A DNA stretch of 64,000 bases from Blautia coccoides. GTDB taxonomy: Bacteria; Bacillota; Clostridia; Lachnospirales; Lachnospiraceae. Position numbers and translations under genes: made by a program. The stretch covers positions 2,762,501 to 2,826,500 of the forward strand of contig NZ_CP136422.1 of NCBI RefSeq assembly GCF_034355335.1, read 5' to 3'. This document shows positions 24,582-29,537 of the stretch, in pieces (the stretch's first letter is position 1; every line of letters starts with the position of its first letter). The notes under the pieces were generated by a model that did not search any database, was not told the DNA's origin, and saw only the letters and a list, made by a program, of their open reading frames with translations.

Positions 24582-25478
24582 ATGCAGATCAAGGTAAATG
24601 ATTATGAGGAGACGGAACATTTTCGGGCTATCTGTGAGGACTGTTATAATATCTCGAGAACATGTGGTTATGACAGGCTCACAATGTCTCATATCCACAA
24701 CACAAGCGAAATTCTTTTTGTGGAATCAGGGGAGGCGGATTATTACATAGCGGGAAAGAAATATCATGTGGAGCCATATGATATTCTTGTCATTGGGGCT
24801 ATGGAATTCCACAGAAGCGTGATCACGGATCCACCGTATCAGAGATATGGGCTTACGATAAAACCTGCATATCTAAGAGGGATGATACCGGATAAAGACT
24901 TGCAGAAGGTATTTTCCACGCCGCCTGCAGAACGTTTCGTCGAATCTTATAAGCATATAGATCCGAAGATTTTTGCTAAACTGATAGGTCTGCTTCAGGA
25001 TCTGGCAGAGGAACAGCAGGGAGAAAAGGATTACCGGGCACAGATGCAGAGGGGTGTCCTGACCCAGACAGCAGTGCTTCTGTTCAGAGTTCTTCGTATG
25101 GAAAGAGAAGCGGGGGAGATATCTGCCGCCGATACAGCCATGAGGGAAATAAAGGATCATATTGACCTTCATTTCCAGGAAAGGCTTACACTGGAGACTT
25201 TGAGCCGGCGCTTTTATCTCCATCCGTCCACCATCAGCAAGGAATTCAAGCGCTGCTGCGGACATAACCTGAACAAATACATCAACATGGTAAGGATCTG
25301 CCGTGCAGCCTCTCTATTGGAAACCGGTACAGACAGTGTGGCTGAGATTTCTGTCAAATGTGGTTATGAAAGTGAAAACACATTCTTGAGACAGTTTCGG
25401 TCTATTATGGGGATGTCACCTCTTCAATACCGGAAGTCTATGCGAGAATGGATGAGGAAAATGAGTGAGGGGAAATAG
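24582..25478 (+). CDS. AraC family regulator with cupin sensor domain
   Basis: A 298-residue protein with an N-terminal cupin-like half (MSHIHNTSEILFVESGEADY and a PYDILVIGAMEFHR strand) and a C-terminal AraC DNA-binding half: LTLETLSRRFYLHPSTISKE, then VAEISVKCGYESENTFLRQF and the closing MGMSPLQYRK. This is the usual layout of regulators of sugar or sugar-acid use. It diverges from the ManD/RspA-type gene and probably controls it. GGAGGTG lies upstream of the ATG. Confidence 0.9.
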   Translation: MQIKVNDYEETEHFRAICEDCYNISRTCGYDRLTMSHIHNTSEILFVESGEADYYIAGKKYHVEPYDILVIGAMEFHRSVITDPPYQRYGLTIKPAYLRGMIPDKDLQKVFSTPPAERFVESYKHIDPKIFAKLIGLLQDLAEEQQGEKDYRAQMQRGVLTQTAVLLFRVLRMEREAGEISAADTAMREIKDHIDLHFQERLTLETLSRRFYLHPSTISKEFKRCCGHNLNKYINMVRICRAASLLETGTDSVAEISVKCGYESENTFLRQFRSIMGMSPLQYRKSMREWMRKMSEGK

Positions 25479-25629
25479 GCCTGCAGTCCGGGTAGAAAAA
25501 TAAAAAGCAGTCTGCAGTCCGGCAGCAAAACACTTATTTGGTAAATGCTGGTAATTCCTTTACAGCGATTGCGTTATTCTCCCCAAAAGCTATAATAGTG
25601 GAATAACGTCATACACAGGAGGCCTGCCA

Positions 25630-26487
25630 ATGCAGAAAGAAATTACCTTTACCATGAAGACAGAATTGATCGAAGAATTTTCCTGTCACTTATACAGACA
25701 GGAGAAGACAGAGGCAACCATCAGGAAATATTCCACAGATTTAAGAACATTTTTGGGATATCTGGGGAATGACAGGCAAGTACACAGAATCCGTCTTTTG
25801 GAGTACAAAGAATGGCTGAGACAGCAGTATGCAGTGAGCAGCGCCAACTCCATGCTGGCGGCAGTCAACTGTTTTTTAGATTATATGTGTTTTCCAGAAT
25901 TGAAAGTGAAAAGTTATAAAGTACAGAAGCGTATGTTTTTGGATTCGGAAAAAGAAATGACAAAGAGGGAGTACCAAAAACTGGTAGAGACAGCAAGGAG
26001 AAAGGAGAAAAGCCAGCTTGCCCTGATACTGGAGTCAATCTGTGCTACCGGTGTCAGGGTAAGCGAACTGAAGTATCTGACAGTAAAGAACCTTCAGGGA
26101 GGTCGTCTGGAAGTGTCCAATAAAGGGAAAACACGTATTGTCCTGATTCCGGAGAGCCTGCGGAAAAAACTTTTATGTTATGCCGGAAAGCAGGGAATCA
26201 AATCAGGTCCTATTTTTGTCACCAGAAATGGGAAACCCAAAGACAGAAGCAATATATGGACAGAAATGAAACTATTGGCAGAGCAGGCAGGAATTAAACC
26301 GAAAAAAGTCTTCCCGCATAATCTGCGCCATCTTTTTGCCCGTTCTTTTTATAAGACAACAAATAATCTTGCTGCACTGGCAGACGTTCTGGGACACAGC
26401 AGTCTTGAGGTGACAAGGATCTACACAGCAGATACGCTGAAGAAATTTCAGGGAATGATAGAACAACTGGATTTGATCGTTCCATAA
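25630..26487 (+). CDS. XerC/D-like tyrosine recombinase (predicted DNA invertase)
   Basis: A 285-residue phage-integrase-family recombinase. The N-terminal SAM-like core-binding domain is residues 1-95 (QEKTEATIRKYSTDLRTFLG), followed by the catalytic domain with ATGVRVSELK (first Arg), a beta-hairpin Lys in SNKGKTRIV, HNLRHLFARSFY (His-x-x-Arg), LGHSSLEVTRIY (His) and the nucleophile Tyr in IYTADT. All six catalytic positions are present, so it should be active. It is short, without an arm-binding domain, like invertases and Xer proteins. Two inverted Xer-like core sites lie 17 bp past its stop codon. GGAGG precedes the ATG. Confidence 0.92.
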   Translation: MQKEITFTMKTELIEEFSCHLYRQEKTEATIRKYSTDLRTFLGYLGNDRQVHRIRLLEYKEWLRQQYAVSSANSMLAAVNCFLDYMCFPELKVKSYKVQKRMFLDSEKEMTKREYQKLVETARRKEKSQLALILESICATGVRVSELKYLTVKNLQGGRLEVSNKGKTRIVLIPESLRKKLLCYAGKQGIKSGPIFVTRNGKPKDRSNIWTEMKLLAEQAGIKPKKVFPHNLRHLFARSFYKTTNNLAALADVLGHSSLEVTRIYTADTLKKFQGMIEQLDLIVP

Positions 26488-26503
26488 AAAACGAGACATT
26501 AAC

Positions 26504-26527
26504 ACTACATAATAAGAATTATGTAGT
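26504..26527 (+). repeat. left recombination site of the inverton
   Basis: A 24-bp core: 10-bp arm ACTACATAAT, 4-bp spacer AAGA and the exact inverted arm ATTATGTAGT. Its form matches a tyrosine-recombinase crossover site. The right site at 26765-26788 is its inverted copy. Confidence 0.85.
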
Positions 26528-26560
26528 TAATCTGAACGTTAATGCATCTGGTTAATAGAA

Positions 26561-26589
26561 ATTTTAATACATATGGCAAAAAATGTCAA
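26561..26589 (-). promoter_or_regulatory. strong sigma-A promoter inside the inverton
   Basis: On the minus strand: TTGACA (complement of 26584-26589), a 17-bp spacer and TAAAAT (complement of 26561-26566). In this orientation it points at the 3' end of the recombinase gene. Confidence 0.8.
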
Positions 26590-26665
26590 CAAAATATGCT
26601 CGGTTTGTCTTTTAAGGACAGCGGGGTAATGAAATTATCTGAGATTTCCAATTCTTATACATATC

Positions 26666-26698
26666 AAAAAGAAGCCTGCAGGCAGATAAAAGCAGGCT
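26666..26698 (-). terminator. intrinsic terminator inside the inverton
   Basis: A 7-bp GC-rich stem (AGCCTGC at 26673-26679 with GCAGGCT at 26692-26698), followed on the minus strand by TCTTTTTG. It has no T run on the plus strand, so it acts in one direction only and would stop recombinase read-through only in the flipped state. Confidence 0.65.
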
Positions 26699-26764
26699 CA
26701 AAAGAAAAGACGGCATATTCTGCTGTACCTCTCATAAGATTCCTTTAGAAGATGATCTTTTATT

Positions 26765-26788
26765 ACCACATAATTCTTATTATGTAGT
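26765..26788 (-). repeat. right recombination site of the inverton
   Basis: Arm ACCACATAAT, spacer TCTT and arm ATTATGTAGT. The spacer is the reverse complement of the left spacer AAGA, so the two sites are in opposed orientation, which gives inversion rather than excision. One arm differs by one base from the left site. Confidence 0.85.
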
Positions 26789-26833
26789 TAGAAAACAGCC
26801 GCAGGAAGGACAGAAAGCCGGAGGGAGCAGGGT

Positions 26834-27094
26834 ATGATTGAAACAGGTCGAAAAAAGTTCCTCAGAAAAAGTAAAGAAATTAAAAACAGAATGCCAAACC
26901 ATGTGGAAGAGATGGGACTTGGCAGAAAACTGACAGATAAACTGAAGAGTCACAGGATTGAGTATGTCACGGATATCCTGTCATGCACAGAGAAGGAACT
27001 GCGGGAAACCGTAGTGCTGAATGACAAGGAGATGTCTTTGCTGCGGGAAAAGATGAGAGAATTCCAGCTTGATTTTTGGGATGAGCTGTTTTGA
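26834..27094 (+). CDS. small protein resembling the RNA polymerase alpha C-terminal domain
   Basis: An 86-residue protein with a basic N-terminus (1-22). Residues about 27-78 then follow the helix-hairpin-helix pattern of the RpoA C-terminal domain: MGLGRKLTDKLKSHRIEYVT, then DILSCTEKELRE and VVLNDKEMSLLREKMREF, comparable to the helices around Arg265 and the NLGKKSL loop of E. coli alpha. The DNA-contact Arg appears replaced or shifted (RK at 31-32). It could bind DNA or sigma/activators and alter transcription. GGAGGG lies 8-13 bases before the ATG. It is the first gene right of the inverton and its likely output. Confidence 0.7.
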   Translation: MIETGRKKFLRKSKEIKNRMPNHVEEMGLGRKLTDKLKSHRIEYVTDILSCTEKELRETVVLNDKEMSLLREKMREFQLDFWDELF

Positions 27095-27276
27095 ATTTGT
27101 ATCTTGGTTGCGGCTTTGGGGATGAGCCGGTGATCTTCCTTTCATTCAAAAATTTTCCCTGGCAGAAATAGAAAAGGTACGGCTGTCCAGCCTGCCTGAA
27201 GGGTTATCGTTATTGCCAAAATTAGAATTAGTGGTAAGATTATAATATAGCCAAAGGAAAATGCAAGAAGAAAGGA

Positions 27277-27822
27277 ATGGATAATATGGAATTCTCGGAA
27301 CTGGTAAAAAGGAGATACTCTGTCCGCTCTTACAATGGAAAGAAGGTGGAGCAGGAAAAAGTAGAAAAAATACTGGAAGCCGCCCATGCGGCGCCTACAG
27401 CCGCAAATCTGCAGCCTGTTCGGCTGTTGGTGATCCGGCAGGAGGAAGGACTTAAAAAATTGGCAAAAGCGGCAAATATTTACCATGCGCCGCTTGCCAT
27501 AGTGGTATGTGCGGACCACAGCAAAGCATGGGTACGTCCCTTTGACAAAAAGCAGACCTGTGACATTGATGCCTCCATCCTCACGGACCATATGATGCTG
27601 CAGGCCGCGAACCTGGGACTTGGCAGTGTCTGGATCTGTTATTTCAAACCTGATGTATTGCGGGAAGAATTCTGTATTCCAGAGAATCTGGAGCCTGTCA
27701 ATATACTTGCAGTGGGTTATAGTGACGAGATGCCTTCATCACCGGACAGACATGAGCAAACCCGAATAACCATCAAAGAGCTGGCCTCATTTGAACATTT
27801 TAGTGATAGGGGAGAATTATAA
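27277..27822 (+). CDS. nitroreductase family FMN enzyme
   Basis: A 181-residue flavin enzyme of the nitroreductase fold: ELVKRRYSVRSYNGKKVE with the FMN-phosphate-binding Arg cluster, AAHAAPTAANLQPVRLLVI, and the C-terminal LGLGSVWICYF and PVNILAVGYSD. It would reduce nitro groups, quinones or other acceptors with NAD(P)H in the cytoplasm. Start ATG 27277, or 27286, which has better spacing from GAAGAAAGG. It ends 1 bp before the next gene. Confidence 0.9.
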   Translation: MDNMEFSELVKRRYSVRSYNGKKVEQEKVEKILEAAHAAPTAANLQPVRLLVIRQEEGLKKLAKAANIYHAPLAIVVCADHSKAWVRPFDKKQTCDIDASILTDHMMLQAANLGLGSVWICYFKPDVLREEFCIPENLEPVNILAVGYSDEMPSSPDRHEQTRITIKELASFEHFSDRGEL

Positions 27823-28577: not shown

Positions 28578-29537
28578 TTATACATCATAAACCGCCCAGT
28601 TCTGTTCTCCTTCCTCTCGGATACGGATTTCCGGAAAACTCTGTATATACTGCTTGAACTGGGAAAAACCGTAATCCCGCACTTTAAAATCGCCAAAACG
28701 GTTCCGGATCTTATTGCTGAGTGTACCCAGAGGAACACCCTGGCGGCCTGCATTTCTTACAAGCTGTATCACATATTCCTCCAGCATTTCTTTTTTGCTT
28801 TTGTCCTCATAGAGGGTGACGGATACCTGAGTCCCTTCCTGCTGCAGTTTTAATTTGGGGAAGGATTCCAAAAATTTTGACAGGAGGCTGTATCCGTACC
28901 GCCTCACATCAAAGTCAGGATATAACTTGACCAGGCGGCTTCCGACTTCACCCAGGCCTGTGATTTTATCGTTATTCTGATTCTCTGTGATGATCTTGAC
29001 AACAGCCTCCTCGATCTGTGTCTTGGAAACCACGTCGGCATTGTCCTGCTTCGTGCCTTTTTCCATGGCATGGATCGTGGGCTTTTCCTCTTTTTCTATG
29101 GCATTGTCTTCAAGCAGAAGCTCCAGTACCGTAAAAATATCACAGGCTTTTCTGAAAGAGGAAGGTGTCTTGTCCTCCCCCATGCCGATGACATTTTTGC
29201 CGCTTTCCCTCAAACGGCTTGCCAGTTTTGTGAAATCACTGTCACTGGAAACCAGGCAGAATCCTTCTAATTCACTGGTATACAGCATGTCCATAGCGTC
29301 AATGATCATTGCGGAGTCCGTTGCGTTTTTTCCGTGTGTATAGCTGAACTGCTGAATCGGTGTGATGGAATTTTCCAGCAGAACTTCCTTCCAACTGGAA
29401 TTATAAGTGCTGGTCCAGTCACCGTATATTCTCTTGTATGTAACATTTCCGTATTTGGAGAGTTCATCCAGAATTGGCTTGATGTATTTGGCTGAGACGT
29501 TGTCAGCGTCGATCAGCAGTGCGTATTTATCTTCCAT
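28578..29537 (-). CDS. NYN-domain ribonuclease-like protein with OST-HTH/LOTUS repeats
   Basis: A 319-residue protein. The N-terminal NYN (PIN-like, DUF88) domain carries the acidic metal residues of LLIDADNVSAKYI, ATDSAMIIDAMDML and VSSDSDFTKLASRLRESGK. Two copies of an OST-HTH/LOTUS-like domain follow (about 172-240 and 252-319), each with an LGxLxxxIRNRF- or VKLYPDFDVRRYGYSLL-type helix set and a VRDYGFSQF repeat. NYN-LOTUS proteins are thought to be RNA-binding nucleases. Transcribed alone on the minus strand; the target RNA is unknown. Confidence 0.88.
   Translation of the reverse strand: MEDKYALLIDADNVSAKYIKPILDELSKYGNVTYKRIYGDWTSTYNSSWKEVLLENSITPIQQFSYTHGKNATDSAMIIDAMDMLYTSELEGFCLVSSDSDFTKLASRLRESGKNVIGMGEDKTPSSFRKACDIFTVLELLLEDNAIEKEEKPTIHAMEKGTKQDNADVVSKTQIEEAVVKIITENQNNDKITGLGEVGSRLVKLYPDFDVRRYGYSLLSKFLESFPKLKLQQEGTQVSVTLYEDKSKKEMLEEYVIQLVRNAGRQGVPLGTLSNKIRNRFGDFKVRDYGFSQFKQYIQSFPEIRIREEGEQNWAVYDV

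Follow-up and report, generated by a model that had tools for sequence, protein, structure and literature searches.

Among the closest described systems are the invertons of group 139 in the hCom2 study (PMC11892184). This group holds 33 invertons, 32 of which come from Clostridia, and most of them are linked, significantly, to a single group of tyrosine-type recombinases, invertase group 35. The invertase is classed in that study as one that cannot be driven by the promoter of the inverton, and the ratio of the two orientations in reads shifts over passages; for the example given, the printed coordinates correspond to repeats of 26 nt with 205 nt between them (PMC11892184). In Clostridioides difficile, switches have been described in which inverted repeats lie upstream of the target and a tyrosine recombinase is involved (PMC5903667, PMC6837544, PMC5386303, PMC8890394, PMC2784873), and further inversions in Clostridia have been placed near signalling and chemotaxis genes (PMC5903667).

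The locus described here lies in a 64-kb window, the whole stretch of DNA analysed, of a Blautia genome of 6.10 Mb. The arrangement by which promoter invertons are recognised, inverted repeats around a short intergenic segment, is present at the locus, which is very probably a self-contained phase-variation cassette, that is, a promoter inverton linked to its own recombinase. A search of the open-licence literature on invertible promoters and invertons of Blautia and Lachnospiraceae found no description of it.

Recombinase, inverted sites and promoter of the window locus

The gene at 25630..26487 on the plus strand encodes a 285-aa, Xer-like tyrosine recombinase, assigned by Pfam and structure alignment, which we propose to be the inverter of the adjacent segment. 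It contains a Phage_integrase domain (Pfam, E 5.7e-25), and alignment with the solved XerA/XerD recombinases showed that R143, K165, H230, R233, H256 and Y265, the R-K-H-R-H-Y set that carries out catalysis in tyrosine recombinases, are all present, which bears out the initial annotation of the gene as a catalytically complete member of this class. The Xer-type models NF040815 and NF001399 score high on the protein (138 and 108 bits), and the tyrosine-type DNA invertase models NF007371 and NF007370 score low (29 and 26 bits).

The first of two inverted 24-nt sites lies 16 nt beyond the end of the recombinase gene. Site 1 (ACTACATAAT-AAGA-ATTATGTAGT, 26504..26527, core at 26507-26524) and site 2 (ACCACATAAT-TCTT-ATTATGTAGT, 26765..26788) were delimited from the sequence and from their conservation in siblings; they are complementary at 23 of 24 positions (96%) in inverted orientation, with 237 nt between them. 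The earlier description of two 24-bp sites with 10-bp arms and complementary AAGA and TCTT spacers around 237 bp stood, except that the arms of site 2 match at only 9 of 10 positions. The segment predicted to flip, bounded by the sites and found inverted in sister cassettes, spans 26514..26778. The pair is unique in the window when exact 12-nt seeds, 40-1000 nt apart, are required to extend to 20 or more complementary positions out of 24. Exact copies of the core, ACATAAT-N4-ATTATGT, are found at three places in the 6.1-Mb genome, namely the two window sites and one site in a sister cassette. No exact orphan core, outside the cassettes, was found in the genome, and orphan sites for action in trans were rejected for this reason. 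One mismatch at most gives 12 places, nine of them in cassettes. Up to two mismatches give 53 places, and most of these are taken to be chance matches because a reversed control pattern gives 38.

A minus-strand promoter match, TTGACA-17-TAAAAT, lies within the segment at 26561..26589 and, as sequenced, would fire out of the segment across site 1, in antisense to the recombinase gene. It matches at 11 of 12 positions and is the best of the four promoter-like matches in 25400-27600; because 3.7 such matches are expected by chance, the weight of the promoter rests on its score and conservation and not on the count. Behind the promoter is a terminator-like hairpin (26665..26699, minus strand) with an 8-bp stem, a 12-nt loop and a T-tract. 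The minus-strand hairpin, with the U-tract after it, folds at −13.1 kcal/mol (z −2.8; 2 of 200 shuffles were equally good). A simple terminator scan reported no terminator in the region, because the 12-nt loop exceeds the limit of the scan. Thus, both the minus-strand promoter and the one-way terminator proposed at the outset were recovered, the former as the best match in the region and kept in siblings, the latter by folding in spite of the simple scan. It had also been proposed that the promoter is aimed away from the downstream gene as sequenced and toward it if flipped, and the sequence agrees, since the promoter is predicted to face the downstream neighbour in one orientation only. On the plus strand of the segment as sequenced, the hairpin is present and the T-tract is absent, so that read-through from the recombinase could leak into target expression in this state.

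Twenty genomes of the genus were searched, and the recombinase is more than 90% identical in three of them: the window's own, G003, which we take to be Blautia parvula NBRC 113351, and G008. In each of the two siblings the sites are identical at 23/24 and 24/24 positions, the promoter region (26555-26595) is identical at 40/41 and 39/41, and the hairpin region (26655-26702) at 46/48 and 43/48; the sites, promoter and hairpin are better conserved than the segment as a whole, which is 90.9% and 83.1% identical. The loss of the sites beside the recombinase in related genomes, named in the initial annotation as an observation that would count against it, was therefore not encountered, as both siblings have them. 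No inverted copy of the window locus was found in these three species, all of which show an OFF-like orientation, and, because all three orthologues share this orientation, we infer rather than observe the flipping of the window's own copy. A protein with NYN and OST-HTH/LOTUS domains is encoded at 28578-29537, and its place downstream of the cassette is conserved in the two siblings.

The cassette family and its matched spacers

Among 397 genomes of the same family, 74, its own included, contain a match to the recombinase at E ≤1e-55; the copy numbers are lower bounds because the scoring took in mostly six candidates from each genome. We collected 134 distinct relatives, 118 of which have at least 600 nt downstream, including a few near-duplicates (e.g., L138/L140). 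A site pair follows 102 of the 118 genes, and its threshold was reached by none of 590 dinucleotide shuffles. The 16 relatives without a pair at this threshold include L035, the sixth recombinase gene of the window's genome, and weaker pairs are seen in six of them (L073, L086, L087, L088, L090 and L146). The median distance from the recombinase stop to the start of the first core is 10 nt (99/102 between −25 and 100 nt), the stop codon falls inside the core in 20 cases, and the median distance between cores is 243 bp in the 102 cassettes. Relatives at E ≤1e-30 are also carried on two phage records and seven plasmid records (two from Subdoligranulum and one each from Pusillibacter, Monoglobus, Sebaldella, Streptococcus and Ruminococcus); four plasmid loci were checked: the same core pair is present in two of them, another inverted pair in the third, and no pair in the fourth. 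One cassette, L160 in genome G268, has three tandem cores on each side within an 89-nt inverted repeat, and its spacer is that of L081 in the same genome, which could permit exchange between the two loci.

All 102 pairs agree, in the inverted register, at the six central bases, although the four-base spacer takes 59 forms across loci. Mismatches within loci number 37 over the 14 arm positions and zero in the central 6 bp (Fisher p 1.7e-4, comparing the 4-bp spacer with the remaining 14 positions of the core). Because the pair search itself rewards matching, the comparison was repeated with sites chosen by their arms only; the spacers then matched in 96 of 98 pairs in the inverted register versus 3 of 98 in the direct register, the exceptions being L151, for which another pair is better, and L088, a weak pair. 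Palindromes are rare among the four-base spacers (3/102) and absent among the central hexamers. Matching of this kind is a requirement of crossover sites, and recombination, when repeated, would of itself maintain the identity of the two spacers; the region of exchange may thus be about the central 6 bp. Avoidance of shared spacers by paralogous cassettes of one genome was also considered and rejected: the same spacer occurs in 3 of 72 pairs from one genome and in 110 of 5079 pairs from different genomes (assigned by hand for 20 genomes, with each remaining locus treated as a separate genome), which indicates diversity only.

In 16 of the 102 segments the better promoter match is directed at the downstream gene and in 62 at the recombinase, with 24 undecided, and strong promoters alone divide 13 to 37 in the same sense; the binomial p of 1.5e-7 for this bias is optimistic because the counts include orthologues and paralogues. 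A promoter score of 10 was found in 46 of 102 segments versus 7 of 102 shuffles. All but one of 52 strong promoters lie in the exit half of the segment, and their −10 elements end a median of 45 nt before the exit core. Hairpins in the sister segments lie on either strand, on both, or are missing, and a hairpin insulator is therefore unsupported as a rule of the family.

We compared 141 pairs of related cassettes, counting a match when its score was at least one quarter above the best of 50 shuffles. Forty-six pairs passed, 32 in direct and 14 in inverted orientation. Eight of the inverted pairs are clear and fall into five groups, two of which were also recognised by eye; the other six are weak (scores 24-53) and were given no weight. 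L024 and L008 score 185 inverted versus 19 direct, with a shuffle maximum of 33; L025 is inverted relative to L034 and L037 (217 and 228), and L091 relative to L068 and L080 (91 and 88). The remaining groups lie within single genomes: L076 and L093 (201), and L104 versus L071 (78, just under twice the shuffle maximum) and L116 (92). Because five groups show opposite orientations, the sequences indicate that inversion of the segment does take place naturally in this family. The reading of the window locus as a recombinase-linked promoter inverton, advanced in the initial annotation, is strongly supported by the family: the 102/118 pairs, the 102/102 matched centres and the five inverted groups.

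One alternative hypothesis is that the cassette once flipped and is now fixed OFF in its clade, either because the recombinase is unexpressed or because the state is selected. The single orientation common to all three orthologues agrees with this. However, the catalytic residues, both sites, the promoter and the hairpin have been kept across species whose segments are 83-91% identical; in addition, a single assembly can show one state only, and a promoter directed toward the recombinase is the commoner state of the family (62 versus 16). We think that such fixation is improbable. That the sites serve another system, as operators or in the manner of attachment sites, with the recombinase acting elsewhere, is scarcely credible: each is near-palindromic and could be bound by a dimer, but perfectly matched, locus-specific spacers fit crossover sites, sister segments are found inverted, and the genome has no exact orphan cores.

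The target gene and targets elsewhere in the family

The inverton reading leaves a single gene as the target, which the initial annotation had not named while placing the locus, correctly, in a known class. This gene (26834..27094, plus strand), preceded by GGAGG, encodes an 86-aa protein for which profiles and Foldseek suggest, weakly, a helix-hairpin-helix fold like that of the C-terminal domain of the RNA polymerase alpha subunit (αCTD). The αCTD profile PF03118 matches at E 4e-4, below the Pfam cut-off, and TIGR02027 at E 8.6e-6, far below its cut-off. The best solved relative is RpoA2 (6wmp, E 0.002); ATP synthase b chains come next, from E 0.011, and these we take for chance matches. A structure model built from three sequences only (mean pLDDT 66) overlays αCTDs at about 1.4 Å over 55-57 residues; the Foldseek probability is near 1, yet E is above 0.1, and domains of RAD51-paralogue complexes rank first, with other helix-hairpin-helix domains also matching at E above 0.1. 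In a gapless alignment to RpoA2 (6wmp), the DNA-contact positions are changed to K32, D35, N63 and E66; the equivalent residues of E. coli αCTD, which contact DNA, are R265, N268, G296 and S299. The protein is 91% and 85% identical in the two siblings, and these apart it was found in only one of 200 family genomes, its own.

The target stands alone, as a convergent HxlR-type gene comes next in both siblings (Pfam HxlR E 2.6e-33 in the one scanned), and because this gene lies between, a nitroreductase is ruled out as the target. In the window, 27095-27200 resembles, on visual inspection, what is left of an HxlR-type regulator gene at the place where both siblings carry it, and this loss may have deprived the nitroreductase at 27277 of its regulator.

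The other paired cassettes of the window's genome precede a BTAD-type regulator (L044), a 'YLSDL' protein (L034), an unannotated protein (L033) and, in L032, a protein of at least 704 aa that has no Pfam match and looks by eye like a surface protein. For the family as a whole, the first gene after site 2 was taken as an ORF by a simple rule, so that single assignments may err, and the survey of domains covers 25 of 55 target families. Among the targets are large proteins that seem to be secreted (VWA, LRR and other repeats), CpsB/CapC, sugar transferases and signal peptidases. Regulators of the HTH, Rrf2 and BTAD types (one of the last), GGDEF/EAL and HD-domain proteins and helicase-associated domains also occur.

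The YLSDL proteins, of about 77-105 aa, are encoded by the first gene after 12 of the 102 cassettes (L034:4103-4339 in the same genome, L025, L037, L052, L057, L074, L095, L100, L105, L138, L140 and L147, with L138 and L140 near-duplicates). Three members scanned singly gave no Pfam or NCBIfam match. The AlphaFold2 model (pLDDT 92, from a 12-row alignment with L099 replacing L140) had no convincing Foldseek match in the PDB (best E 0.75), so the model may represent a new small fold. Kinship between the 86-aa protein and this family is unsupported. Five other cassettes (L024, L008, L051, L144 and L145) precede proteins with repeated FGRLTV...CDCG units, and that of L024, scanned singly, showed no convincing Pfam family.

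Proposed mechanism and comparison with known systems

We propose that the two 24-bp sites are brought together by the recombinase, which cleaves around the matched bases at their centre (the 4-bp spacer with the flanking T and A) and thereby flips the 237-bp segment between them. In the OFF state, as sequenced, the promoter would fire leftward over site 1, antisense into the recombinase; in the ON state, it would fire over site 2 into the αCTD-like gene, and the hairpin, now between recombinase and promoter, could serve as an insulator. We infer flipping of the window copy by its own recombinase, activity of the promoter and an effect of the 86-aa protein on transcription, exerted more probably through binding of regulators or RNA polymerase than through DNA contact in the manner of αCTD. 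Flipping may in this way have a cellular effect. A small polymerase-like protein under a random switch is unusual, and it could make a global regulator phase-variable.

One could envision, as an unlikely extension, a two-way toggle with memory, in which antisense transcription in the OFF state slows further flipping, whereas in the ON state this transcription ceases and a free αCTD mimic rewires the access of activators to RNA polymerase. If this is true, then one flip would shift the transcription programme of the cell. The relevant geometry recurs in the family, as a promoter that does not face the target faces the 3′ end of the recombinase gene, which is the commoner arrangement (62 versus 16).

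The family also provides a rule that can be applied to single genomes without reads: a recombinase, followed mostly within about 100 nt by the core ACATAAT-N4-ATTATGT, with a locus-matched spacer. It yields 102 candidate switches in Clostridia, placed before genes for surface proteins, capsule genes, signal peptidases, second-messenger enzymes and regulators.

The cassette family described here is probably that of inverton group 139 and invertase group 35 (PMC11892184), although the main text of that study does not name Blautia and we saw no αCTD-like target or spacer rule in it. The fimS switch of E. coli, with FimB and FimE, shares with the window locus a promoter segment near 300 bp in length (314 bp in fimS), a tyrosine recombinase and a one-operon target (PMC9993118). 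Unlike FimB and FimE, the window recombinase fits Xer-type models (138 and 108 bits) and not those for tyrosine-type DNA invertases (29 and 26 bits). Some switches of C. difficile are flipped by RecV, and these RecV switches likewise have inverted repeats upstream of the target and a tyrosine recombinase that flips them. In contrast to the master recombinase of C. difficile (PMC5903667), the recombinase of the cassettes found here is their own and is encoded directly upstream. Invertons are thus known as a class, and what is new, as far as we have seen, is this locus, its target and the matched-spacer rule.
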